NCBI RefSeq assembly: GCF_004138295.1
Contig: NZ_SCFM01000006.1
Coordinates: 248,001-312,000 of the forward strand
DNA length: 64,000 bases
Reading direction: 5' to 3'
Origin: Ectobacillus funiculus
GTDB lineage: Bacteria > Bacillota > Bacilli > Bacillales > Bacillaceae_G
Position numbers and translations under genes: made by a program. Of this stretch, positions 1,300 through 56,230 are shown in pieces (the stretch's first letter is position 1; every line of letters begins with the position of its first letter). A model generated the notes under the pieces. That model was not told where the DNA came from. It did not search any database and saw nothing but the letters and a program-made list of their open reading frames with translations.

Positions 1300-1363
1300 G
1301 TAGCTATATCAAGAAAGCGATTACTTGATAAAGATGATTTATAAAACTGGGAGGGGAATAGAA

Positions 1364-1492
1364 ATGGGTACAATCATATGCCAAGTTTGTGAGGGAACAA
1401 TCGAAAAATTCGAGGATGAAAAGGTGACAGTATTGTACGGAAACTGCTGTTCTCACTGCAATCCCAAAAATAGAAAGAATGCTGAAAAATAA
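1364..1492 (+). CDS. sr1P: SR1P, GapA-binding peptide encoded by SR1
   Basis: A 42-codon reading frame beginning MGTIICQVCEGTIEKFEDEK with a very strong GGGAGGGG ribosome binding site. It carries CQVC near the N terminus and CCSHC near the C terminus, the paired-cysteine pattern of the SR1P family, plus the conserved core C.G.I..FEDEK..VLYG. In B. subtilis SR1P binds glyceraldehyde-3-phosphate dehydrogenase GapA and promotes its interaction with RNase J1 and RNase Y; both pdh and rnjA lie close by here. Slightly longer than the 39-residue B. subtilis peptide. The basic tail KNRKNAEK is variable in the family. Confidence 0.9.
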   Translation: MGTIICQVCEGTIEKFEDEKVTVLYGNCCSHCNPKNRKNAEK

Positions 1493-1511
1493 GAGTTTGC
1501 ATAGCAGACTC
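1493..1511 (+). terminator. SR1 terminator hairpin
   Basis: GAGTTTGC-ATA-GCAGACTC directly after the SR1P stop codon (one G-U pair), followed by ACATTTTC. The T-run is weak, so termination may also use the hairpin at 1524-1552. Confidence 0.55.
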
Positions 1512-1672
1512 ACATTTTCGAAAAAATCATTTATCGACCGCGAAGTGATTTTCTGCATAAATTTCATTAGCTGATTCAGATTTCCTAGTACATGGAATCA
1601 TAGTTATTGAGAATTCGATCATATAAACTGAAACCATGTGAAAACTTTTTAAAATGCTGGTTTTTTCCATAA

Positions 1673-19085: not shown

Positions 19086-19222
19086 TAAAGAAAACTCGCC
19101 GATTGGCGAGCCCTGCCCTTGGGCGAAGACAGAGGCGTAGCCCTACTTATACTGTATTCCTAAAATTTCTTACTACGTCGAATGGTCTTCCTGCTAAAAA
19201 TTTATACTTTCTTACAGTGTAA
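19086..19222 (+). repeat. R1 copy 5
   Basis: Full-length copy in the ccpC-darB gap, GTAGCCCTAC subfamily. The small palindrome is eroded (TTCCTGCTAAAA). The right end runs straight into the darB terminator. Confidence 0.92.
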
Positions 19223-19256
19223 AAAAGTGCAACCTTTGGCAGAAAGTTGCACTTTC
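19221..19256 (-). terminator. terminator of darB
   Basis: AAGTGCAAC / GTTGCACTT; the minus strand ends in TTTTTT supplied by the edge of the R1 copy. Confidence 0.85.
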
Positions 19257-25995: not shown

Positions 25996-26052
25996 ACAAA
26001 ATTTCCGACTACGTCGAGGTAGCTTCCGGCTAGAAATTTATGCTTTCTTAAA
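25996..26052 (+). repeat. R1 copy 8a, right half, in tandem with 8b
   Basis: AAAATTTCCGACTACGTCGAGG... to TTTATGCTTTCTTA; its right end merges into the AAAGAAAACTCGCC start of the next copy, so the two share the junction. Confidence 0.85.
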
Positions 26053-26185
26053 GAAAACTCGCCGATTGGCGAGCCCTGCCCTTAGGCGAAGACAGAGGCG
26101 TAGTTGCACTTATACTTTATCTCTAAAATTTCTCACTACGTCGAATTGTCTTCTAGCTAGAAATTTATACTTTCTTAAAGTGTAA
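26050..26185 (+). repeat. R1 copy 8b
   Basis: Full-length, GTAGTTGCAC subfamily, palindrome in T-A form. Its right end reaches to within a few bases of the fadH stop codon, leaving no room for a separate fadH terminator. Confidence 0.92.
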
Positions 26186-26186
26186 A

Positions 26187-26951
26187 TTAAAATGGATGCT
26201 GATGCAGATGCTGACCACCATCCATCGTCATTACCGCACCGTTTATATAAGAGGCCTCATCTGAAAGTAAATAACAGGCAAGACCAGCGATTTCCTCTGG
26301 TGTTCCAAGACGACCAAGAGGTACGCTTTCTAGCGTACGCTTCGCAGCCTCTTCTGACACCCAAAGACGTTCTGCTCCTCCTGTACGTTCAATCGGCCCC
26401 GGCGCAATGGCGTTTACGCGGATCCCATATTTCCTCCCCCATTCCACCGCAAGCGTACGAGTCATAGCCAATACGCCCGCTTTTGCCGATGCAGAATGAA
26501 TAACACCAGGACCAGCATCCCAAGCATACGTAGCAATCATATTCACAATCCGTCCAGCAATCCCCCTTTCAATCCAATACTTTCCAACTGCGCTGCTGCA
26601 ATAAAAGGTTCCGTTCAACACAATGTTGATAACAGCATTCCAACCGTTTACAGACAGCTCCTCCGCTGGACAAACAAAATTTCCTGCAGCGTTATTCACT
26701 AGATAATCAATACGCCCAAAAGCAGCATCCACCGATTGCACCATTTGCTGTGCTTGCTTTGGTTCACGCACATCCATTTGCACAACGAGTACCTGGTTCT
26801 CAAATTGCTCAATCTCTCGCTTCGCTTGCTCTAATGCTTCTAACGTACGACCTGTGATTACAACATACGCACCCTCGCAAGCAAAGCGAAAAGCCATCGC
26901 TTTCCCCATCCCGCTCGATCCGCCTGTTACAACAACAACTTTTCCCTTCAT
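26187..26951 (-). CDS. fadH: 2,4-dienoyl-CoA reductase FadH (SDR family)
   Basis: 254 residues starting MKGKVVVVTGG; the in-frame ATG four codons earlier abuts AGGGG too closely. Short-chain dehydrogenase with NADP-binding TGGSSGMGKA, NNAAGN, and the FadH-type sequence NMIATYAWDAGPGVIHSASAKAGV with the catalytic Lys. It is nearly collinear with B. subtilis FadH (YkuF). Reduces 2,4-dienoyl-CoA during breakdown of unsaturated fatty acids. Conserved neighbour of ykuE. Confidence 0.92.
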   Translation of the reverse strand: MKGKVVVVTGGSSGMGKAMAFRFACEGAYVVITGRTLEALEQAKREIEQFENQVLVVQMDVREPKQAQQMVQSVDAAFGRIDYLVNNAAGNFVCPAEELSVNGWNAVINIVLNGTFYCSSAVGKYWIERGIAGRIVNMIATYAWDAGPGVIHSASAKAGVLAMTRTLAVEWGRKYGIRVNAIAPGPIERTGGAERLWVSEEAAKRTLESVPLGRLGTPEEIAGLACYLLSDEASYINGAVMTMDGGQHLHQHPF

Positions 26952-42551: not shown

Positions 42552-43116
42552 CCTCTACCCCTTCTAAATAAACTTCCCGTTCTACAGTATCCTCTGCTTT
42601 CTACAACAAACAGCCTCAACAATGAGGAATCGATTCCTAAAAGCACCCTACTGCATCCCTAAATGGGATCGTATTATCCTTGTTGCTTCAGACACACTTG
42701 CTACTCTAACAGCACTGTTACCAATGCAGCCTTCCCTGTGCCAATCACATGTCCCACATGTATGTTGTTCGCATTCTTTCTACGGCAGCTTGATTTTCTA
42801 CCTCTTTCTGCTTACCGGTTTTCTGCTCCCATACCAAGACAATCCCCTGCTTACTGTTAACACATACCGAGCTTCTATAACAATGCTGAGAGAAGTTATG
42901 TAGCAGACAGCAAAAAATGAGACACGCTGCATATTTGCGTGCCTGTTCCTGAAGGGTACTTCTATAGGAAATGCCAGTCCTATACAAAATGATTATAACA
43001 AAAAACAATGTCGTTTTTTGCAGAAAAAAAGTTAGAACTTAAAAAATTTTCCGAAAAATAAAATTCACCCTAATAAAACACCTAAAAAATCCCATAATCG
43101 TGACAGATTTGTGAAT

Positions 43117-43250
43117 AAAGAAAACTCGCCGATTGACGAGTCCTGCCTTTGGACGAAGACAGAGGCGTAGTTGCACTTATACTTTATTCCTAAAATTTCT
43201 CACTACGTCGAATTGTCTTCTAGCTAGAAATTTATACTTTCTTAAAGTGC
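43117..43250 (+). repeat. R1 copy 13, first of a tandem pair
   Basis: Full-length, GTAGTTGCAC subfamily, palindrome T-A form. The preceding stretch 42552-43116 contains only short, non-overlapping frames without ribosome binding sites and no recognisable gene. Confidence 0.93.
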
Positions 43251-44483: not shown

Positions 44484-44623
44484 TAAAGAAAACCCATCGA
44501 TTGGCGAGCCTTGCCTTTGGGCGAAGACAGAGGCGTACGTAGCCCTACTTATACTGTATTCCTAAAATTTCCGACTCCGTCGAATTGTCTTCCAGCTGGA
44601 AACTTATACTTTCCTACAGTGTA
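44484..44623 (+). repeat. R1 copy 15
   Basis: Full-length; left hairpin partly eroded (ACCCATCGATTGGCGAG) and a 4-bp duplication GTACGTAG in the core. GTAGCCCTAC subfamily, palindrome in C-G form. Confidence 0.92.
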
Positions 44624-44677
44624 AGAAATCCCTTACTAGTAACCAGTCGGGTACCTTACCCCATCTGTATTTGCAAT

Positions 44678-45763: not shown

Positions 45764-47095
45764 TTAAGCAATCTCCTCTGAACCTCGTTCGCGAGACGAG
45801 TTGGTAGATAGCTTCTTTCTAAGGAAGAGGTATACAAAACCAATGGAGAGCCAAACCAATCCCAACATAAGCGTTTGCTTACTTAAAAGCGTGAGCAGCC
45901 ATCCAATAAAGCCAGCTCCTATCAAAGGAAAGATCAAATATCGGAACGTTTGCCCGAAGGAACGTTGACGATTTCTTACATAATAGTGAGCAATGACGGA
46001 AATATTTACAAACGTAAAGGCTGTCAGGGCACCAAAACTAACAAAGGTAACAGCTGTATCAAGACTGATAAACAGTGAGATCAATGAAATTACAGAGACA
46101 ATGACAATGTTTAAAACTGGTGTCTGAAAGCGCGGGTGAATACTTGCAAACACCTTCCTTGGTAAGATAGCCTCCTTACCAAGTGCATATAGGAAACGTG
46201 ATACACTCGTAACGGACGAAACACCTTGCGTAAAAATAGCTACCACAAGCACAGCAATAAAGATAGCATTTAACAGATTTCCGCCAATTAGCTTAATCAA
46301 CTCCATTGATGCTGTATCAGGATGATGGAAGGAGAAATTCGGATATGCTATTTTGGTAAAATAAGAGACTGATAAATACAATGCTGCAGCAATGCAAACA
46401 ATAATGAAGATAGCCTTTGGAATTGTCTTTGTCGGATTGATGGTCTCCTCCGCTGTCGTCGTAATAGCATCAAAGCCAAGGAAGCAAAAACAGATAATGG
46501 CAGCGCCGGCAAAGATTGTAGAAAGGGACATATCAGGATGAAGGAACGTACTTGCGGATACAAGCGTACCCCCTCCCCCTACAATATCCTTAATGACAAG
46601 TGCGCAAAGCAGTACAATAAAGGCAATTTGCAATAAAACAGAAAACCCGCTAATACGTGCAACCGACTTAATCCCTACGATATTCACAATCGCAAGAATA
46701 ATATTAATGCCAATAATCCAAACCGGAACTGGAATAGCTGGAAACTGTGCATTGAGAAAAATTCCAAACGTTAAACAAGCGATAATAGGAGAAAAGATAT
46801 AATCCAACAAAAGAGCCCAACCTACAAGAAAGCCCATTTGCGGATTTACAGCTTTTTTCGTATAGGTGTACGCAGAGCCAGCAATCGGATATGCCTTTGC
46901 CATCATTCCGTAACTATAGGCGGTAAAGAAAATCGCCAAAAATGCCACGAGATAGGCTGGAACAAGCAGCCCCCCTGATGCCTCGAATGCTACGCCGTAT
47001 ACCGTAAAGAAAATCATTGGAGTCATCCAGGCGAGACCTACAAATACAACTTGACGCAATGTGAGCGACTTTGCGAGTACAGCTCCTTTTTCCAT
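45764..47095 (-). CDS. APC-superfamily amino acid/polyamine-type permease
   Basis: 443 residues, 12 predicted membrane helices. APC signatures: FVGLAWMTPMIFFTVYGVAFEASGG-type first helix with the substrate-binding unwound segment, GSAYTYTKKAVNPQMGFLVGWALLLDYIF, and FLGFDAITTTAEETINPTKTIPKAI in helix 6-7. The nearest general match in pattern is the PuuP/YcaM-like group. It is divergent from the guanidine operon and has no riboswitch of its own. It may import guanidine, a guanidine precursor or an unrelated amino acid; the sequence does not decide. Confidence 0.88.
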   Translation of the reverse strand: MEKGAVLAKSLTLRQVVFVGLAWMTPMIFFTVYGVAFEASGGLLVPAYLVAFLAIFFTAYSYGMMAKAYPIAGSAYTYTKKAVNPQMGFLVGWALLLDYIFSPIIACLTFGIFLNAQFPAIPVPVWIIGINIILAIVNIVGIKSVARISGFSVLLQIAFIVLLCALVIKDIVGGGGTLVSASTFLHPDMSLSTIFAGAAIICFCFLGFDAITTTAEETINPTKTIPKAIFIIVCIAAALYLSVSYFTKIAYPNFSFHHPDTASMELIKLIGGNLLNAIFIAVLVVAIFTQGVSSVTSVSRFLYALGKEAILPRKVFASIHPRFQTPVLNIVIVSVISLISLFISLDTAVTFVSFGALTAFTFVNISVIAHYYVRNRQRSFGQTFRYLIFPLIGAGFIGWLLTLLSKQTLMLGLVWLSIGFVYLFLRKKLSTNSSRERGSEEIA

Positions 47096-47173
47096 TTCCC
47101 ATCCCTCTTTCTTCGACTTCTATATTTTTGAGTATGTGCTTTCTCATGTTCAGCGGCTGTTATTCGTCATTGT

Positions 47174-47314
47174 AAAGAAAACTTGCCGATTGGTGAGCCC
47201 TGCTTTTGGACGAAGACAGAGGCGTAGTTGCACTTATACTGTATTCCTAAAATTTCTCACTACGTCGAATCGGCTTCCAGCTGGAAATTCATATCGTACT
47301 TTCCTACAGTTTAA
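47174..47314 (+). repeat. R1 copy 16
   Basis: Full-length, GTAGTTGCAC subfamily, palindrome in C-G form, with a short insertion (CATATCG) in the right arm. It lies between the permease and riboswitch promoters. After it a short hairpin with an eight-T run (GTTAGA-TAA-TCTAAC, 47345-47368) has no upstream gene. Confidence 0.92.
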
Positions 47315-47426
47315 ATTCAGAAAATTGAAATTTTCAACTCCAACGTTAGATAATCTAACATTTTTTTTAAAAATTCAATTTTATTTCAATTCCATGTTGC
47401 ATTACATTTCTTTTCATGTTACATTT

Positions 47427-47432
47427 TATAAC
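47427..47432 (+). promoter_or_regulatory. -10 element of the guanidine operon
   Basis: TATAAC, about 20 bp before the riboswitch aptamer; the -35 region is AT-rich and weak. Confidence 0.4.
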
Positions 47433-47452
47433 ACAAACCAATATTCAGTTTT

Positions 47453-47540
47453 CTAGGGTTCCGCGGCTTAGCCGGTCAGGTCCAAGAGAAAACGCACAGC
47501 ATCCATAGCTGTGTACACGGAAGGATAAAAGCCTGGGAGA
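47453..47540 (+). ncRNA. guanidine-I (ykkC) riboswitch aptamer
   Basis: The conserved blocks of the class are all present in order: CTAGGGTTCCG, GGTCCAAGAGAAAACGCA, an apical stem (CAGC...GCTG), ACACGGAAGGATAAAAGCC and TGGGAGA. The 3' GGGAGA overlaps the 5' arm of a strong terminator, so guanidine binding should prevent terminator folding and switch the operon on. The gene order behind it agrees with the riboswitch class. Confidence 0.95.
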
Positions 47541-47586
47541 TATCACTAAGACATCCGTCTTAGCGATATCTCCCTTTTGTTTTTTC
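47535..47586 (+). terminator. riboswitch-controlled terminator
   Basis: GGGAGATATC(A)CTAAGAC-ATCC-GTCTTAG(C)GATATCTCCC then TTTTGTTTTTT. It shares GGGAGA with the aptamer, forming the expression platform. Confidence 0.93.
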
Positions 47587-47610
47587 TAAATCATTTAGGA
47601 GGTTAATAAA

Positions 47611-48330
47611 ATGAATCTCATTTGGAGCAAAACAATCGGTTCTGGAGGAAAATGGTCAGGAGTAATTAGCCGCGGAAGGCTGCTTCGTTTTACAGCGCTT
47701 GGTGACGAAGCAAACCTTTCTCTATTGATGTACAACGCAAAGGATGTATCAGAGCGCTACAATATGCCCGATACCTTAAAAGCGCAGCATACCTCCCGCT
47801 TAACAGCAGGAAATGTTCTCATGAGCGATAATGGACGTGTGCTGGCAAGCATCGTTGATGATGAGCTCGGCTGGCACGATACGATCTGCGGCTACACAAC
47901 ACGAGAAACAACAGATAACAAATACGGAACTACCACCTATCAAGAATTACGAAATGACTGGCTGCGCAGTGGGCAAGAAAACTTCGCAGTAGAACTCACA
48001 AGAAACGGTTTAGGCATGCGAGATCTTGTCCCTGTCGTAAATTTATTTTCAAAAGTATCCTGCGACCATAATGGTGATATGCATTTTAACTTAGAGCATT
48101 GCCAGCGAGGCGCGAGCGTAACATTGCGTACTGAAATGGACGTGCTTCTTCTCCTTTCGAACACACCAAACCCACTCGACCCGAGAACAGTGTACCCATC
48201 CGTACCGGTTAAAGTTGAAGTTCTTCCATCAGCTCCTGTTGATACGGATGACTACTGTGTCAACTATCGTCCGGAAAATAAACGCGCATTTGAAAACACA
48301 TGGGAATACCATACACTGCTAGGCCTATAA
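47611..48330 (+). CDS. carboxyguanidine deiminase subunit (UAAP/DUF1989 paralogue, first)
   Basis: 239 residues (MNLIWSKTIGSGGKWSG...), the longer of two adjacent paralogues once called urea-amidolyase-associated proteins. Published work showed that such pairs (CgdA/CgdB) form a carboxyguanidine deiminase that turns carboxyguanidine into allophanate and ammonia. Conserved DUF1989-type features here: GRLLRFTALGDEANLSLLMYN, a metal-site region DDELGWHDTICG and RDLVPVVNLFSKV. First gene after the guanidine riboswitch, ribosome binding site AGGAGG. I do not assign the A/B label. Confidence 0.9.
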   Translation: MNLIWSKTIGSGGKWSGVISRGRLLRFTALGDEANLSLLMYNAKDVSERYNMPDTLKAQHTSRLTAGNVLMSDNGRVLASIVDDELGWHDTICGYTTRETTDNKYGTTTYQELRNDWLRSGQENFAVELTRNGLGMRDLVPVVNLFSKVSCDHNGDMHFNLEHCQRGASVTLRTEMDVLLLLSNTPNPLDPRTVYPSVPVKVEVLPSAPVDTDDYCVNYRPENKRAFENTWEYHTLLGL

Positions 48331-48363
48331 CACAAGATAACCATTCAAAGGAGGAACATTTAC

Positions 48364-49014
48364 ATGGCTGTTTTTAATAGAGTAGAGAGCGAGCGCAGCA
48401 TAGAGAATGCAATCTATAACGAGACGATTTTAGCGGGGGATGGCTGGATGCACGAGCTGCTTCCAGGTCAAGTGCTCCGAATTGTTGACCTTGAGGGCAA
48501 TCAGGCTGCTGATACATTAATTTATAATGCAGATCACCCTGAAGACCACTACAGCGCTGTTGCCACAGTTGCAGCGCAGCAAAATATTTATTTAACGACT
48601 GGCTCTGTATTGCGGTCCGAATCAGGAAACAAGCTGATGACAATCGTTGCTGATACATGCGGACGTCATGATACATTAGGAGGCTCCTGCTCCGCACAAA
48701 GCAACACAGTACGTTACGCACACGAAAAGCTGCATATGCATAACTGCCGGGATACATTTATGCTGCAGCTTGCAAAATATGATGAATCCTATACGAAACG
48801 CGATTTAGCGCCAAATATTAACTTTTTTATGAACGTGCCGGTCACTCCCGAGGGCGGGTTGGAGTTTGCAGATGGTGTTTCTGCTCCCGGCTGCTATGTA
48901 GAACTGCGATCCGAATGCCGTACAATGGTGCTTATTAGCAACTGCCCGCAGCTAAACAACCCTTGTAACGCTTATAACCCAACACCGGTTCAAGTACTCA
49001 TTTGGGATAAATAA
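48364..49014 (+). CDS. carboxyguanidine deiminase subunit (UAAP/DUF1989 paralogue, second)
   Basis: 216 residues, 33 bp after its paralogue, behind AAAGGAGG. Shares the fold pattern: [34 protein letters not shown] (cysteine and His that fit a metal site), [15 protein letters not shown] and [16 protein letters not shown]. Several Cys residues (in CGRHD, GGSC, NCRD) contrast with the first subunit, which has fewer. Presumed partner in the heteromeric deiminase. Cytoplasmic. Confidence 0.9.
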
Positions 49015-49064
49015 CAGAAATTTGCACGCAATTATTTCAGAATATTCAAAAAGGAGAGGTTATC

Positions 49065-52000
49065 ATGTTTAAAAAAGTACTCATCGCAAATCGCGGAGCG
49101 ATCGCAACTCGGATTATCCGGACACTGCATAAGCTGAACATCGCATCCGTAGCTGTTTATACAAAAGCAGATCAAGATAGCCTTCATGTCGATTTAGCAG
49201 ACGAATCGGTTCTCATCGGAGAGGGACTGGCAAAGGACAGCTATTTAAATGCAGAGCTTATTTTACAAACAGCGCTTAAAACAGGTGCAGAGGCGATTCA
49301 TCCCGGTTACGGCTTTTTGAGTGAAAATGCAGACTTTGCCCGCGCTTGCCGGGAACACGGCATCGCATTCATCGGTCCAACCCCGGAGCAAATGGAGCTT
49401 TTTGGCCTAAAACACTCCGCGAGAGAAATTGCAGAAAAAACGGGAGTCCCTATGCTGCCCGGAACTCCGCTTATTACAGAGCTGACAGAAGCCTTGGAAC
49501 ACGGGGCGCGTATCGGTTATCCGGTTATTTTAAAAAGTACAGCCGGTGGCGGCGGAATTGGTATGCGCGTGTGTGAGGATGAAGAAGCGCTCCGCTCCGC
49601 ATATGACGCCGTTTGCCACCTTGCTGAAGCAAACTTTAAGAACAGCGGTGTCTTTTTAGAAAAATACATTCGAAAAGCGCGTCACGTTGAGGTGCAAATT
49701 TTCGGAAACCGTTTCGGTGAAGTTGTGGCATTAGGAGAGCGCGACTGCTCCATTCAACGCCGCAATCAAAAAGTAATTGAAGAAAGCCCAGCACCAAATT
49801 TCCCGCAGCATGTTCGGGAAAGCATGCTGGATTCTGCAAAGCGGCTAGCATCCGAAACCGGCTACCGCAGCGCTGGAACAGTTGAATTCCTCTATGATCC
49901 TGAGCAATATTCCTTCTATTTCCTTGAAGTGAATACAAGATTGCAGGTAGAGCACGGCGTAACAGAGGAAGTGCTCGGAGTTGACCTTGTGGAGTGGATG
50001 GTGCGCGAAGCAGCAGATGAGCTGCATGATCTACATACACTCGTGAAAAAACCAAACGGGCACAGCATTCAAGCACGTATATATGCTGAGGATTGCCTAA
50101 ATGACTTCCGCCCAAGCGCAGGACAGCTTGATCAAGCTATCTTTTCAGAAAATGCAAGAATTGAAACATGGGTAAGGGATGGCATTACTATTACATCGTT
50201 ATATGACCCGATGTTAGCTAAAATCATCGTACACGGCGAAAATAGACTAGACGCCATTAATAAGCTTATTAGCGTATTATCTGAAACTCGCCTGTACGGC
50301 ATTACAACAAACCTACAATACTTAGAGGCTCTACTTAAACAAGAGGATTGCCGAGAAGGAAATGTATATACGCAATTATTAAATGGCTTCACACCTAATG
50401 AGCACGCGATTGAGGTATTGGACGGCGGTGTGCAAACGACCGTACAAGATTGGCCTGGCAGAACCGGACACTGGGATGTTGGTGTTCCGCCTTGCGGACC
50501 GATGGACCCCCTTTCCTTCTGCATCGGCAATCAGCTGCTCGGAAACAACGAGAATGCTTCAGGTTTAGAACTCACACTGCGCGGAGGCTCCTATCGCTTC
50601 CGAAATGAGATGTGGTTTTGTGTAACCGGAGCTGACATGAGAGCAACTCTCGATAATAAAGAAATCCCAATGTATCAGCCAGTGTTCGCAGCGAGCGGGC
50701 AGATACTGGCATTTCATGAGGCAAAAGAAGGAATGCGGACATATTTACTTGTGGCCGGCGGCTTGGATATGCCAAGCATCCTCGGGAGCTCTTCCACATT
50801 TACACTCGGTGGATTTGGCGGTCATGGCGGACGTGCTCTGCGTACTGGCGATGTACTTTCCGTAAATAAAGGAAGCCAGCCAAAGCTAACAAAAGCGTTG
50901 CCTGCTACCTTTAGACCATCTATGTCTCGGATATGGACCATTGGTGTTATTCCAGGTCCGCATTGCACAGAGGAATTTCTTCATGCTGACTACCTGCCGC
51001 AGCTTACCGAAACAGAGTGGGAGGTTCATTTTAACAGCTCGCGGACAGGAGTTCGCCTCATCGGACCTGCACCGCATTGGGCACGTGAGGATGGCGGTGA
51101 AGCAGGGCTGCATCCTTCCAATATTCATGATAACGCCTATGCGATCGGCACGCTTGATTTGACAGGTGACATGCCAATTCTTCTTGGTCCAGATGGCCCG
51201 AGTCTTGGTGGATTTGTTTGTCCTGTTACAACAGCATCAGCGGAATTTTGGAAAATCGGCCAGCTTCATCCAGGGGATACCGTTCGTTTCCGTCTGCTTA
51301 CATTAGAAGAGGCAGAGAATTTACGCAGCTTGCAGGAGAAGAATTTACAAGCAATCGGCAGCGCCGCTTGGGATGAGCTGGCTGTATGTCAGCTTCCATA
51401 TCCGAACGAAACATTATCGAGTCACTATCCGATATTAGCCAGTGATGCAGAAAACAGAAGATTTGCGATTACTATTCGCTGCTGCGGCGATCAAAACCTC
51501 TTGGTTGAATACGGCGAGATGGAACTGGACCTATTACTTCGCTTCCAAATTCACGCGCTTATGGAGGCTATTCAAACAAGCAATGTTCTCCCTGTACTTG
51601 ATTTAACACCTGGAATTCGCTCTTTGCAGGTTCATATTAATCCTGCAAAAATGACAGTACAAGAAGCATGTCAGCATATTTTACAAATTGACAGCGCACT
51701 TCCTCCGCTCGAGGATATCCGAGTGCCATCTCGAATTGTCCGTCTCCCTCTTTCCTGGGATGATCCGGCAACAAAGCTTGCGATTGAGCGTTATCAGCAA
51801 AACGTTCGCCCTGATGCGCCTTGGTGCCCCAGCAACCTGGAGTTTATCCAACGCATCAACGGTCTTAGCAGTATAGAAGATGTACGACGCATCGTATTTG
51901 AGGCTAATTATCTCGTTCTTGGACTTGGCGATGTGTATTTAGGGGCACCTGTTGCAACGCCAATCGATCCGCGCCATCGCCTTGTAACAACGAAGTATAA

Positions 52001-52703
52001 TCCTGCGCGAACATGGACTCCTGAAAATGCTGTAGGAATCGGCGGTGCTTACATGTGCGTATACGGAATGGAAGGTCCGGGCGGCTATCAATTTGTCGGT
52101 CGCACTATTCAAATGTGGAATCGTCTTCGCTCTACGGAAAGTTTCCAAACCGGCAAACCATGGCTGCTGCGCTTCTTTGACCAAATTCAATTTTATCCAG
52201 TTGAAGCTGATGAGTTGCTTCAATTACGTGAAGATTTCTTGCGCGGCAGATTTGAAGCTGATATTACAGAAACAACCTTTGACCTCGGAGAATATCTAAG
52301 ATTCTTAGATGAGATTAAGGATAGCGCAGAAGAATTCCGTACCCAGCAGCAGCACGCATTTAAAGCAGAACGAGAAAGCTGGAAAGCTCTCGGTCTGGCA
52401 GAATATATCTCAGAGCAAGAATCTGCTGGCGCTGCCGAGGAGGAAGAAATTCCCGAAGGCGCAATTGCAGTGCGGTGCGCATTGCCCGGAAGTGTTTGGA
52501 AGGTTCTTGTTTCACCTGGTCAACACGTGCAAAAGGGTGACACACTTATAATAGAAGAAAGTATGAAAATGGAGTTTCCCCAATACGCTCCTTGTGACGG
52601 ATATGTGGCATCTATTTATGTAAAACCAGGGGATGAAGTGCATGCAGGACAACTGACAGTAAGCATTGTGGAGGAAACAAAAGAGGAGGTATTACTAAAA
52701 TGA
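49065..52703 (+). CDS. biotin-dependent guanidine carboxylase (urea-carboxylase family)
   Basis: 1212 residues: biotin carboxylase (1-450; GGGGIG ATP loop, ERDCSIQRRNQKV, EVNTRLQVEHGVTE), carboxyltransferase made of KipA-like (about 455-765) and KipI-like (about 810-1010) parts, and a C-terminal BCCP with biotin Lys 1168 in EESMKMEF. Annotated families call this urea carboxylase, but the riboswitch and the two deiminase genes mark it as the guanidine enzyme. The carboxyltransferase motif VGRTIQMWN has Asn1019 where the eukaryotic urea enzyme has Asp (as I recall it), a change reported to favour guanidine. Consumes ATP and bicarbonate. Its stop overlaps the next gene as ATGA. Confidence 0.93.
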   Translation: MFKKVLIANRGAIATRIIRTLHKLNIASVAVYTKADQDSLHVDLADESVLIGEGLAKDSYLNAELILQTALKTGAEAIHPGYGFLSENADFARACREHGIAFIGPTPEQMELFGLKHSAREIAEKTGVPMLPGTPLITELTEALEHGARIGYPVILKSTAGGGGIGMRVCEDEEALRSAYDAVCHLAEANFKNSGVFLEKYIRKARHVEVQIFGNRFGEVVALGERDCSIQRRNQKVIEESPAPNFPQHVRESMLDSAKRLASETGYRSAGTVEFLYDPEQYSFYFLEVNTRLQVEHGVTEEVLGVDLVEWMVREAADELHDLHTLVKKPNGHSIQARIYAEDCLNDFRPSAGQLDQAIFSENARIETWVRDGITITSLYDPMLAKIIVHGENRLDAINKLISVLSETRLYGITTNLQYLEALLKQEDCREGNVYTQLLNGFTPNEHAIEVLDGGVQTTVQDWPGRTGHWDVGVPPCGPMDPLSFCIGNQLLGNNENASGLELTLRGGSYRFRNEMWFCVTGADMRATLDNKEIPMYQPVFAASGQILAFHEAKEGMRTYLLVAGGLDMPSILGSSSTFTLGGFGGHGGRALRTGDVLSVNKGSQPKLTKALPATFRPSMSRIWTIGVIPGPHCTEEFLHADYLPQLTETEWEVHFNSSRTGVRLIGPAPHWAREDGGEAGLHPSNIHDNAYAIGTLDLTGDMPILLGPDGPSLGGFVCPVTTASAEFWKIGQLHPGDTVRFRLLTLEEAENLRSLQEKNLQAIGSAAWDELAVCQLPYPNETLSSHYPILASDAENRRFAITIRCCGDQNLLVEYGEMELDLLLRFQIHALMEAIQTSNVLPVLDLTPGIRSLQVHINPAKMTVQEACQHILQIDSALPPLEDIRVPSRIVRLPLSWDDPATKLAIERYQQNVRPDAPWCPSNLEFIQRINGLSSIEDVRRIVFEANYLVLGLGDVYLGAPVATPIDPRHRLVTTKYNPARTWTPENAVGIGGAYMCVYGMEGPGGYQFVGRTIQMWNRLRSTESFQTGKPWLLRFFDQIQFYPVEADELLQLREDFLRGRFEADITETTFDLGEYLRFLDEIKDSAEEFRTQQQHAFKAERESWKALGLAEYISEQESAGAAEEEEIPEGAIAVRCALPGSVWKVLVSPGQHVQKGDTLIIEESMKMEFPQYAPCDGYVASIYVKPGDEVHAGQLTVSIVEETKEEVLLK

Positions 52704-54460
52704 GCATCGTACAATACCCGGAGACATTATCCATCGAATGGCTTCACGACATGTATGCAAAAAAGGCAATTACACCAAAGGATGTCATTGACGAAATTAT
52801 TAAACGCGCCAACAGAGACAGTGAAATGAATATTTGGATCACACCGCCTTCGGCAGAAGTTCTTCAGCCCTATATAGAGCGACTGGAATCACTTAGTACA
52901 GACCTGCCGCTATGGGGCATCCCTTTCGCTGTCAAGGACAACATCGATGTAGCAGGCATGCCTACAACAGCAGCTTGCCCAGAGTATACGTATATACCAT
53001 TACAGCACGCAACAGTCGTAGAACGCTTTGTCGCAGCCGGTGCCATCCCTGTCGGCAAAACAAATTTAGACCAATTCGCTACCGGTCTTGTCGGAACAAG
53101 AAGTCCATATGGCGAAACACATAACGCACTATGGCCAGAACTTATTAGCGGCGGCTCCAGTGGCGGTTCTGCCGTTGCTGTGGCGCGCGGCCAGGCAGCC
53201 TTCTCACTCGGTACGGATACAGCTGGCTCAGGACGTGTGCCTGCCGCTTTAAACCGACTCGTCGGATACAAACCAAGCCTTGGCGCTTGGTCAACAAAAG
53301 GGGTTGTTCCCGCTTGCGCAAGTCTTGATTGCATAACCGTATTTGCTCATAGTACAACTGATGCGATGATCGTAGACAGCATCGCACGCGGCATAGATGA
53401 TGAAAATCCTTGGTCCCGAAATATTCCGATGCCTTCTACGGCACTTCCAGAAAAAATATATTTGCCAAAACAGCCGCTTTCCTTTTTCGGACCGTTCGCT
53501 GCAGAGTACGAACGTGCTTGGGAAAGAACTGTCGAGCAGCTCAAGCAATTGAATATCCCCATCGAGTATCTGGATTACGAATTCTTTGCTGAAGCAGCTG
53601 CGATTTTATATGATGGTCCACTTGTGGCAGAGCGTTGGGCAGACTTAAGTGAATTTATAGAGTCCCATCCAGGAGTTACATTCCCTGTAACAGAACAGGT
53701 GCTTCGCTCTGGCGCTGCGGATAAGCACACAGCCGCATCCTTGTTTCACGCAATGCACAAGCTACAGACCTTTAAGCTTGCGGCAAGAAAGCAGCTCGGC
53801 AACGCTGTGCTTGTTACACCTACCGCTGGTGGGACATGGACGCGTGATGAGGTACGATCAAACCCGATTAGCGCAAACAGCGACATGGGGAGATTTACAA
53901 ACCACTGTAATCTTCTTGATTTATGCGCTATCGCAGTACCTGCCGATGATGCGGCACCACAGCTGCCATTCGGCATTACCTTCTTCTCTCTTTGGGATCA
54001 AGAAGGACTCATTTACGGCGCTGCTAACATGTTTACAAACAACGCCAAGCTACTGAAACAAGAAACAACCTTAGTAGCGGTGTGCGGTCTGCACATGCGG
54101 GGCTTTCCTCTTGAAAAGCAGATGAAGGAATGCGGCGCGACCTTTATTCGAGAAGCAGCTACAGCAGCAAAATATAAGTTTGTAAAACTGTCGACATCCC
54201 CTGCAAAGCCAGGGCTCATCAAGACAGAAAATGGAGGTGCTTCCATCGAACTGGAGCTGTGGGAAATGCCTCTTTCCTCCTTCGGCGTGTTCGCAGCATC
54301 TATCCCTGCACCGCTCGGGATTGGTAAGGTCGAACTGCAAGACGGCTCAGAGGTTCCGGGATTTATTTGTGAAGCGTATGCAGCGGCAGATGCAGAAAAT
54401 ATTACAGCGCTCGGCAGCTGGCGCAATGCAATAGCTGAGCCTGTCGAGGCAAGACGTTAA
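52700..54460 (+). CDS. atzF: allophanate hydrolase
   Basis: 586 residues. Amidase-signature domain (1-450) with the Ser-Ser-Lys triad K79 (AVKDN), S153 (SGGSSGGSA) and S177 (DTAGSGR), followed by the small C-terminal allophanate hydrolase domain (about 465-586) that decarboxylates the intermediate. Converts allophanate to two ammonia and two CO2, the final step of guanidine breakdown here. Translation is coupled to the carboxylase by the ATGA overlap. The operon therefore yields three ammonia per guanidine without urease. Confidence 0.94.
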   Translation: MSIVQYPETLSIEWLHDMYAKKAITPKDVIDEIIKRANRDSEMNIWITPPSAEVLQPYIERLESLSTDLPLWGIPFAVKDNIDVAGMPTTAACPEYTYIPLQHATVVERFVAAGAIPVGKTNLDQFATGLVGTRSPYGETHNALWPELISGGSSGGSAVAVARGQAAFSLGTDTAGSGRVPAALNRLVGYKPSLGAWSTKGVVPACASLDCITVFAHSTTDAMIVDSIARGIDDENPWSRNIPMPSTALPEKIYLPKQPLSFFGPFAAEYERAWERTVEQLKQLNIPIEYLDYEFFAEAAAILYDGPLVAERWADLSEFIESHPGVTFPVTEQVLRSGAADKHTAASLFHAMHKLQTFKLAARKQLGNAVLVTPTAGGTWTRDEVRSNPISANSDMGRFTNHCNLLDLCAIAVPADDAAPQLPFGITFFSLWDQEGLIYGAANMFTNNAKLLKQETTLVAVCGLHMRGFPLEKQMKECGATFIREAATAAKYKFVKLSTSPAKPGLIKTENGGASIELELWEMPLSSFGVFAASIPAPLGIGKVELQDGSEVPGFICEAYAAADAENITALGSWRNAIAEPVEARR

Positions 54461-54705: not shown

Positions 54706-54801
54706 ATGACTGAAAATACCGCTAAACGATATGTGATCCTTATTCCCCACTGTAAATGGAGGTGTAATACCGTTGGACTTGTCCGCTATACAAGCAAATA
54801 A
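54706..54801 (+). CDS. candidate leader peptide overlapping the kinase start
   Basis: 31 residues, MTENTAKRYVILIPHCKWRC..., with AGGAG 4 bases before the ATG. Its stop lies 29 bp inside the kinase gene, in another frame, and it covers the kinase ribosome binding site. It could control kinase translation by coupling. Support is only the ribosome binding site and the overlap. Confidence 0.3.
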   Translation: MTENTAKRYVILIPHCKWRCNTVGLVRYTSK

Positions 54802-56230
54802 AAACCTAGATTTTCAGCAGCTGTTTATCATTTTCGACCAGTTAGAGGATATGATGTTTCTTATCAGCGTTGACGATTTACCTACCTTCAGATTCACTCA
54901 CATAAACCCCGCTTACGTAAGAAATACCGGTATACAACTCGCGCAGATAAAGAATAAGCAAACAGAAGATATCTTCCACCCAGATGACGCACATGCGATG
55001 AACGCAAACTATCAAAAAGCCATTATGAACAAACAAAAACTTAGCTACGAAGAACAACTAACCATCGGAAGAAGAAAAAGAACATACGAAACAACGCTCA
55101 TCCCTATTTTTCAAGAGCACACAGGCAAATGCCTTTATATTGTTGGCATCTCACGAGATATTAGCCAAAGAAGAAAACATGAGGAAGCACTTCGGCTCAT
55201 GCATAAGGAATTGACCGATATTATGCGAAATCAGCAAGGGCTCGTATTTAAAGTCCAAAAACATGGGCAAGATTTTTATTTCGCACTTTGTGACGGACAG
55301 CTTATCTACGAACTCGGTTACACACCTAACGACATGACCGGAACATACATTAAGGAGTTGTTCACTCCTGACCATACTGCATTCTTATATGAACAGTACA
55401 ACCGCTGCTGGGAATCCCAAGAAAAAATTGTCTTTGAGGTACATTATTTAAACAAACTATTTTGGCTCACATCATTAAGCCCAATTGTCGAAAATGGAGA
55501 AACAGTGGCGTTAATTGGTTCATCTATTGACATTAAAGCGAAGAAGCAAGCGGAAGAGGCTTTGATGCAAACCGAAAAATTGGCATTACTCGGCGAACTA
55601 GCAGCAGGAATTGGTCATGAAATACGTAATCCTCTCACCGTAATCAAAGGATTCATTTCCCTGATGCTCCAGGACACATCCTTTCTTACACCAAAGTTCA
55701 TCAAGCTCATTGAATCGGAAATTGATCATATTAACCAAACAGCCGGCGAACTGATGATGCTTGCCAAACCGCAGCAGCAGCAGATTACCAGTGTGGATCT
55801 TCACGGTTTATTTGATGAGATCATACAGCTTCTCGATTCAGCAGCTTTCAAGAGGCGGGTAAACGTCCAAACGAATTACACAGGTAACTCGATACTTTCC
55901 TGCGGTGACAAACACCAGCTGAAAAAAGCCTTCTTCAATCTCTTGAAGAACGCCATAGAATCCATGGAGGAAAAGCGAGGCGGCTATGTATTTGTATCCT
56001 GCACGGAGTCAAACAATAACATCATTGTCACTGTTCGTGATCAAGGACAAGGCATTCCTGCTGAGCAGATTGATCACCTCGGGGAACCATTTTACACAAC
56101 CAAAAAGAAAGGAAATGGCCTTGGACTGATGGTAACATATCGCGTCATTAAAAACCACGGAGGAAGCATTTCCTGCGAGAGTGTACCAGGCGAAGGCACG
56201 ACCTTTACAATTACATTTTCCAACCCATAA
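54773..56230 (+). CDS. PAS-domain sporulation-type histidine kinase (KinA/KinE-like)
   Basis: 485 residues from a TTG start behind GGAGGTG. Two PAS domains (about 18-135 and 150-265; HPDDAHAMNANYQKA and DISQRRKHEEAL at the ends), HisKA with LLGELAAGIGHEIRNPLTVIKGFISL, and HATPase with KNAIESMEE, DQGQGI and GNGLGLMVTYRVIKNHGG. Soluble, no membrane helix. HEIRNPLT and LGLMVTYRVI are the forms seen in phosphorelay kinases. No regulator gene adjoins it. Could feed Spo0F. Confidence 0.88.
   Translation: MDLSAIQANKNLDFQQLFIIFDQLEDMMFLISVDDLPTFRFTHINPAYVRNTGIQLAQIKNKQTEDIFHPDDAHAMNANYQKAIMNKQKLSYEEQLTIGRRKRTYETTLIPIFQEHTGKCLYIVGISRDISQRRKHEEALRLMHKELTDIMRNQQGLVFKVQKHGQDFYFALCDGQLIYELGYTPNDMTGTYIKELFTPDHTAFLYEQYNRCWESQEKIVFEVHYLNKLFWLTSLSPIVENGETVALIGSSIDIKAKKQAEEALMQTEKLALLGELAAGIGHEIRNPLTVIKGFISLMLQDTSFLTPKFIKLIESEIDHINQTAGELMMLAKPQQQQITSVDLHGLFDEIIQLLDSAAFKRRVNVQTNYTGNSILSCGDKHQLKKAFFNLLKNAIESMEEKRGGYVFVSCTESNNNIIVTVRDQGQGIPAEQIDHLGEPFYTTKKKGNGLGLMVTYRVIKNHGGSISCESVPGEGTTFTITFSNP

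Follow-up and report, generated by a model that had tools for sequence, protein, structure and literature searches.

The locus analyzed here, in a 64,000-nucleotide stretch of the Ectobacillus funiculus genome (assembly GCF_004138295.1, contig NZ_SCFM01000006.1, positions 248,001 to 312,000 of the forward strand; referred to as the window), encodes a riboswitch-preceded operon with a protein annotated as urea carboxylase, and raises the question of whether its products degrade guanidine or urea and by which signals their expression is controlled. The favored answer, to which a probability of roughly 85% is assigned, is that the locus constitutes a guanidine-assimilation system in which guanidinium would be imported by a divergently encoded permease and the operon would be controlled twice, by nitrogen-regulatory boxes and by the riboswitch, with binding and regulation predicted from the sequence. 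The initial annotation had described a complete guanidine operon composed of riboswitch, terminator and four genes; this observation is real (with slightly shifted coordinates) as far as the four enzymes and the riboswitch are concerned, whereas the divergent permease and the nitrogen-control sites, situated outside the region it covered, had been overlooked.

Riboswitch and enzyme operon

47442-47541, plus strand: guanidine-I (ykkC) riboswitch aptamer (Rfam RF00442, 89.9 bits, gathering score 63, E 7.6e-15)
47535-47585, plus strand: intrinsic terminator, expression platform of an ON switch (hairpin 47535-47574 and U tract, by sequence and fold)
47611-48330, plus strand: UAAP1/DUF1989 protein, assigned as carboxyguanidine deiminase subunit (TIGR03425, 306 bits, cut-off 206; PF09347)
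48364-49014, plus strand: UAAP2/DUF1989 protein, assigned as carboxyguanidine deiminase subunit (TIGR03424, 313 bits, cut-off 285; PF09347)
49065-52703, plus strand: biotin-dependent carboxylase, annotated as urea carboxylase and assigned as guanidine carboxylase (TIGR02712, 1760 bits, cut-off 1304)
52700-54460, plus strand: allophanate hydrolase with amidase and AH_C domains (TIGR02713, 615 bits, cut-off 511; PF01425, PF21986)

The RF00442 match exceeds the gathering score, covers model positions 1-107 in full length, and no second one was found in the 5.45-Mb genome; the match starts at 47442 and not at 47453, as had been given in the initial annotation. A second covariance model (R1), built from 30 aptamers including that of the window, matches the same element at 47441-47542 with 100.7 bits. 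The terminator hairpin at 47535-47574 comprises 17 pairs and one A.C mismatch and is followed by TTTTGTTTTTT; the predicted fold of 47535-47588 amounts to -27.9 kcal/mol. Indeed, the sequence GGGAGAU, the conserved 3' strand of the aptamer, is common to aptamer and hairpin, which bears out the overlap of both elements described before, and by analogy with the family the terminator would respond to the ligand.

The two DUF1989 paralogues, the carboxylase and the allophanate hydrolase had been correctly listed downstream of the aptamer: all four open reading frames score above the curated NCBIfam cut-offs and possess a purine-rich ribosome-binding site at their 5' side, and the reading frames of carboxylase and allophanate hydrolase overlap by 4 bp. 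The pair of UAAP1 and UAAP2 adjoining the carboxylase corresponds by family match and gene order to CgdAB, and the combination of amidase and AH_C domains to AtzF. The earlier statement that automatic annotation mislabels four genes has to be reduced to three (urea carboxylase, UAAP1 and UAAP2), as the name of the allophanate hydrolase is correct. The distribution of the operon is patchy: a carboxylase above cut-off was present in 1 of 60 genomes (that of the host itself), and UAAP1 above cut-off in 12 of 299 genomes of the class, the host included. Among the matches listed, the closest carboxylase was that of P. radicis (80% identical); a recent transfer of the operon from Paenibacillus may have occurred, although a quick tree did not resolve where the window belongs.

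Guanidine or urea as substrate of the carboxylase

51156-51158, plus strand: codon of Asp698, the residue published as distinguishing guanidine from urea carboxylases (by alignment to the K. lactis enzyme)
52119-52121, plus strand: codon of Asn1019, the residue highlighted in the initial annotation, not diagnostic (by alignments)

According to published work, the residue at position 1330 of the K. lactis urea amidolyase distinguishes guanidine carboxylases (Asp) from urea carboxylases (Asn), with Asp1584 being conserved (PMC11410670); a review agrees on this aspartate versus asparagine rule (PMC12186494). The window carboxylase aligns with the K. lactis enzyme (PDB 3VA7, 5I8I) over residues 2-1201 (1118 bits), Asp698 facing Asn1330 and Asp956 facing Asp1584; in the K. 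lactis protein (5I8I, 1829 aa) the hydrolase is fused, whereas it is separate in the window. The carboxylase thus combines the TIGR02712 family match with an aspartate in both columns, as in guanidine carboxylases, and lacks the asparagine of urea carboxylases in the 1330 column.

The initial annotation had instead relied on Asn1019 in the motif VGRTIQMWN. This residue is present, and the K. lactis enzyme has an aspartate in the same column; the columns of Asp698, Asp956 and Asn1019 are conserved in 80 of 80 related loci (the best 80 named loci by carboxylase match). Nine plasmid-borne enzymes (L288-L296) separate the candidate positions: in seven of them residue 698 is Asp, and genes resembling UAAP1 and UAAP2 adjoin each of the seven; two (L292 and L294) have Asn at 698 and are located adjacent to urt urea-transport genes, with no UAAP match within the 11-kb stretch around each. 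All nine carry Asn at 1019. Since guanidine-type and urea-type enzymes alike possess it (80/80 related, 7/7 Asp698 plasmid-borne and 2/2 urea-type enzymes, the last being a thin sample of two related enterobacterial enzymes from one lineage), Asn1019 is ruled out as substrate determinant, and its use as a guanidine marker has to be given up in favor of the published site.

The same comparison bears on the view that the locus encodes a urea amidolyase system, in which the carboxylase would turn urea into allophanate, with the DUF1989 proteins as accessories. The NCBIfam names (urea_carbox, UAAP1, UAAP2) point in this direction, and L292 and L294 show that some bacteria possess urea-type enzymes, with Asn in the decisive column; both of these, however, are unlike the window in being devoid of a UAAP match and in residing beside urt genes. 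Together with Asp698, the guanidine-I aptamer, the CgdAB-type neighbors and a urease gene elsewhere in the host genome (573-aa frame), which would render a second urea route redundant, this makes a urea amidolyase highly improbable. It is only slightly less improbable that the enzymes act on a different guanidino compound, e.g. methylguanidine: demethylating enzymes have been described as additional members of a guanidine carboxylase operon (PMC12508155), but the window operon contains no additional open reading frame of the demethylating kind, and its aptamer falls into the guanidine-I family. Guanidine is therefore the likely substrate, on account of the riboswitch, the CgdAB-type neighbors, Asp698 and the separate urease; the earlier preference for guanidine over urea stands on these grounds and not on the residue then proposed.

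Divergent permease and its leader

45764-47095, minus strand: APC-superfamily permease, probable guanidinium importer (PF00324/PF13520; homologues in related loci)
47168-47315, minus strand: copy of a dispersed repeat of about 132-148 bp in the permease leader, at the place where most relatives have an aptamer

The NCBIfam matches of the permease are all below the curated cut-offs (best 21), and its assignment was approached via the related loci. Model R1 yielded 112 matches in the window and the 80 loci, four of which were weak (<=26.1 bits) and dropped, leaving 108. A permease homologue is present in 40 of the 80 loci, 31 of them with their own guanidine-I aptamer (31 of 41 with the window counted); 15 of these permeases are divergent, 15 are positioned upstream in tandem, and one (L032) has its own aptamer although it is encoded on the opposite strand, about 1.5 kb past the operon end. 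This frequent association ties the permease to guanidine, and the divergent APC permease is a probable importer of guanidinium. The ten permeases without an aptamer are those of the window, seven other divergent and two tandem ones; among them that of L065 could not be judged, as it is located at a contig edge with only 186 nt upstream, and in L059 an aptamer about 1.9 kb upstream was not assigned to the permease. In the tree of the 41 permeases, that of the window branches as sister to a group of twelve tandem permeases, of which ten possess an aptamer; the 13 sequences together receive 100/99 support.

The leader of the window permease is occupied by the repeat, for which 15 further alignments were found inside the window (e.g. 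43116-43236, 26049-26188, 19086-19223, 44484-44624). Outside the window, the genome contains it in tandem arrays (L266, L267), and diverged copies occur in further genera belonging to the same family and order; the element bears some resemblance to the bcr elements of the Bacillus cereus group. The presence of a decayed aptamer or of another structured RNA at this place was considered but is not supported, the fold being no better than that of shuffled sequences (z 0.46) and 47168-47315 being the dispersed repeat; no Rfam match near the gathering score was detected in the leader. The simplest reading is that an ancestral permease aptamer was lost or replaced by the repeat.

Extra guanidine-I aptamers occur near the operon in several relatives (L065:8721-8821, L084:15513-15613, L059:4879-4984, L072:5542-5651). 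With respect to export, the host genome encodes an adjacent pair of SMR proteins of the ykkCD type (C114, L115/L117) without a guanidine-I aptamer; a possible guanidinium exporter of this organism would therefore not be under guanidine-I riboswitch control.

Nitrogen boxes and putative promoters

47344-47360, minus strand: box I, single-mismatch TnrA/GlnR box TGTTAGATTATCTAACG, placed relative to the permease promoter as an activator site would be
47308-47337, minus strand: putative permease promoter TTGAAA-18-TAAACT (9 of 12 matches), its -10 in the repeat edge
47417-47433, plus strand: box II, exact TnrA/GlnR box TGTTACATTTTATAACA (sequence match), over the putative operon -10
47397-47425, plus strand: putative operon promoter TTGCAT-17-TACATT, a weak match with TG ahead of the -10 (identified by eye; aligned with a promoter of relatives)

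The promoter region between permease and aptamer contains one exact and one single-mismatch copy of the TnrA/GlnR consensus TGTNAN7TNACA. In 1000 Markov resamples of this 345-nt region, an exact box arose with a probability of 0.01 and two boxes with at most one mismatch with a probability of 0.021. Box II is placed 7 nt before the R1 match, a distance of 8 nt being found in a group of Paenibacillus loci; at the place of the putative operon promoter, Paenibacillus relatives (e.g. L035) have TTGACA-17-TATGTT. The location of box II over the operon -10 suggests a repressor position, so that bound GlnR or TnrA would block initiation. Box I would, by its position, act as an activator site for the permease promoter, with TTGAAA at 7-12 nt and TAAACT at 31-36 nt after the box, offsets that recur in many relatives. 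The host genome contains a GlnR-like MerR-type frame beside glnA and three TnrA-like frames (L285, L286, L287), which are taken to be GlnR and TnrA from their likeness and gene order.

Boxes at assimilation and export aptamers

The arrangement was compared with that of other guanidine-I aptamers, with a box being counted if the 200 nt upstream of the aptamer contained TGTNAN7TNACA without mismatch; one-mismatch boxes were kept outside the tallies. In the related loci together with the window, 82 of the 94 aptamers from Bacillota are preceded by an exact box, where shuffling predicts 1.07, and none of the 14 aptamers from outside Bacillota; the control stretch 401-600 nt upstream contained it in 0 of 94 cases, and the best of 300 permuted motifs reached 4 of 94. 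Counted by locus, the box is present in 51 of 57, and by genus label in 15 of 19, the window again included; the Bacillota group comprises L073, which is named Clostridium, while L089, whose match begins at a contig edge and which has no aptamer, is outside the 57 loci. If one mismatch is allowed, 87 of 94 assimilation aptamers have a box (17.5 expected). In 73 cases (the window counted by its one-mismatch box) the box lies 50-125 nt upstream of the aptamer, and in 34 of these (23 of 46 loci) it is followed by a TATAAT-like hexamer beginning at a distance of 30 or 31 nt; the box centre thus lies near -50, the position known for activation by TnrA.

Guanidine-I matches were obtained in 251 of 398 genomes of the same class at E 0.001 (177 above gathering score). 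In a second survey of 110 sites of this class, taken from a longer listing of which lower and some intermediate rows were outside and possibly sharing species with the first survey, an exact box precedes the aptamer at 4 of 4 CgdAB sites, 5 of 8 sites of another APC type, 0 of 85 SMR exporter sites and 1 of 13 others (including L248, which has no downstream frame). With one mismatch allowed, 11 of 85 exporter aptamers have a box (9.5 expected), which argues against a hidden box enrichment at exporters. For the pooled Bacillota, 91 of 106 assimilation-linked aptamers contrast with 0 of 85 exporter-linked ones (Fisher p 7e-39, a value that ignores relatedness and shared boxes and is to be read as "large"). 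On this basis, assimilation appears to be gated by nitrogen need and guanidine, and export by guanidine alone.

The other APC permease type under guanidine-I (L148, L149, L151, L152, L155, L165, L170, L199) is distant from that of the window (about 470 aa, 20-23% identical); in five of these eight loci the exact box is positioned exactly 60 nt before the aptamer.

Evidence against the proposed control

Several observations weigh against this double control. In the surveys, 6 of 57 loci have no exact box, 39 of the 73 boxed aptamers show no -10 at activator spacing, and the counts include related species as well as divergent loci whose aptamers share one box. Exporters may not be wholly free of TnrA, since chromatin immunoprecipitation in B. 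subtilis assigned a TnrA box to the exporter gene ykkC on the basis of a new consensus, although ykkC expression was not affected by tnrA (PMC4475385). In the window itself, the permease has no guanidine-I aptamer of its own (the genome search found only 47442-47541); box I contains a mismatch, and its spacing may be coincidence because the permease -10 is located in the edge of a repeat copy. The operon promoter is weak (3/6 and 4/6 matches) and is missing from the output of a promoter scan, in which 47325-47354 (plus strand) was favored instead.

This last result leads to a different assignment of the boxes with guanidine assimilation retained: the operon would start from 47325-47354, box I would repress over its -10, and the permease would be constitutive or read from elsewhere. 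The alternative promoter scores 10 of 12, and its GATAAT lies inside box I; the exact box II, however, placed as in the Paenibacillus relatives, would be left without a role, and the TTGACA-17-TATGTT promoter of these relatives matches the place of 47397-47425. Such an assignment is accordingly considered unlikely, although clearly less so than a urea-degrading or methylguanidine-type system, and repression from box II with activation from box I is retained.

Relation to known systems

The pathway, the riboswitch and the mislabelling of its genes are already in print; the present analysis adds the divergent permease and the proposed nitrogen gate, together with the split between assimilation and export. 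The Gca/CgdAB/AtzF pathway under guanidine-I shares with the window the four enzymes, the riboswitch class and the aspartate determinant (PMC12186494, PMC11410670), but the window differs by the TnrA/GlnR boxes and the divergent APC permease, several proteobacterial operons having an ABC importer. Comammox Nitrospira units of riboswitch, APC permease and guanidinase resemble it in a putative guanidine importer of the APC type with guanidine-I control; they use guanidinase, whereas the window uses the carboxylase route and a permease without aptamer (PMC11410670). The guanidine-I controlled SMR exporters (Gdx, ykkCD) have the aptamer class in common with the window, but not the exact box (0 of 85).

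Nitrogen control of a seemingly identical gene set has been described in Actinobacteria, where AmtR controls an amino acid permease, urf1, urf2, urea carboxylase and amidase; the part of that report covered here mentions neither guanidine nor a riboswitch, and the regulator is a different one, whereas TnrA/GlnR boxes followed by a guanidine-I aptamer are present in the window (PMC4222082). The AmtR cluster looks like the same guanidine gene set, with urf1/urf2 probably equivalent to UAAP1/UAAP2. In M. smegmatis, the urea amidolyase and allophanate hydrolase genes are upregulated under nitrogen limitation (PMC4617892). In view of both precedents, the gating of such operons by nitrogen cannot be regarded as novel in itself. 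The pairing of TnrA/GlnR with a guanidine riboswitch at assimilation genes was not found in the open-licence literature searched, as far as its texts were covered, a search that left subscription papers and supplements outside and does not show absence from print; the main texts of two GlnR-regulon papers (PMC3412718, PMC9948412) do not contain the word "guanidine", and a further article concerns a different gene set, the operons for branched-chain amino acids, where it mentions TnrA together with tandem T-box and guanidine-labelled riboswitches (PMC12452182). At the Paenibacillus polymyxa nif promoter, GlnR activates from an upstream site and represses from a site by the start (PMC6191146). 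The likeness consists in one box upstream of a promoter and one by the start; both nif sites, however, serve one promoter that lacks a riboswitch, whereas box I of the window best fits the divergent promoter and box II is followed by the aptamer.

Proposed mechanism

In the proposed sequence of events, guanidinium would enter the cell via the divergent APC permease. From family knowledge, the carboxylase would convert guanidine, ATP and bicarbonate to carboxyguanidine, UAAP1/UAAP2 (CgdAB) would deiminate the latter to allophanate, and the allophanate hydrolase would free the remaining two nitrogens as ammonia. When nitrogen is plentiful, GlnR (or TnrA) on box II would prevent initiation at the operon promoter; when it is short, TnrA on box I would activate the permease promoter. 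Without guanidine, the operon-side transcript would stop at the terminator, while the guanidine-bound aptamer would withdraw the GGGAGAU strand from the hairpin and allow read-through, a mechanism known from the family whose anatomy is seen here.

More generally, guanidine-I aptamers of Bacillota are quite probably wired in two ways: import and degradation genes behind TnrA/GlnR-gated promoters, equivalent to an AND gate, and exporters without nitrogen gate. The window would split these inputs, its permease responding to nitrogen only (the aptamer being lost or replaced by the repeat) and its enzymes to both.

Other features of the window

54773-56230, plus strand: PAS histidine kinase, immediately following the operon (sporulation and AtoS-type kinase matches below cut-offs)
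1302-1518, plus strand: match to the small RNA SR1 (RF02376, 48.1 bits, gathering score 45)

No link to guanidine was seen for the PAS histidine kinase at 54773-56230.

Biological implications

For the annotation of these carboxylases, the residue in the 1330 column (Asp698 in the window) should be used and not Asn1019. The survey also strengthens the case for an APC permease family as guanidinium importer of Bacillota. The split in box occurrence offers a rule for annotating guanidine-I regulons and links them to the AmtR-controlled gene set of Actinobacteria. If the proposed wiring is true, one RNA sensor would serve both feeding and detoxification, with the promoter deciding which; the distribution of the boxes would thus provide a directly testable answer to the question of whether guanidine is food or poison, namely that these bacteria would use it as food only when nitrogen is short.

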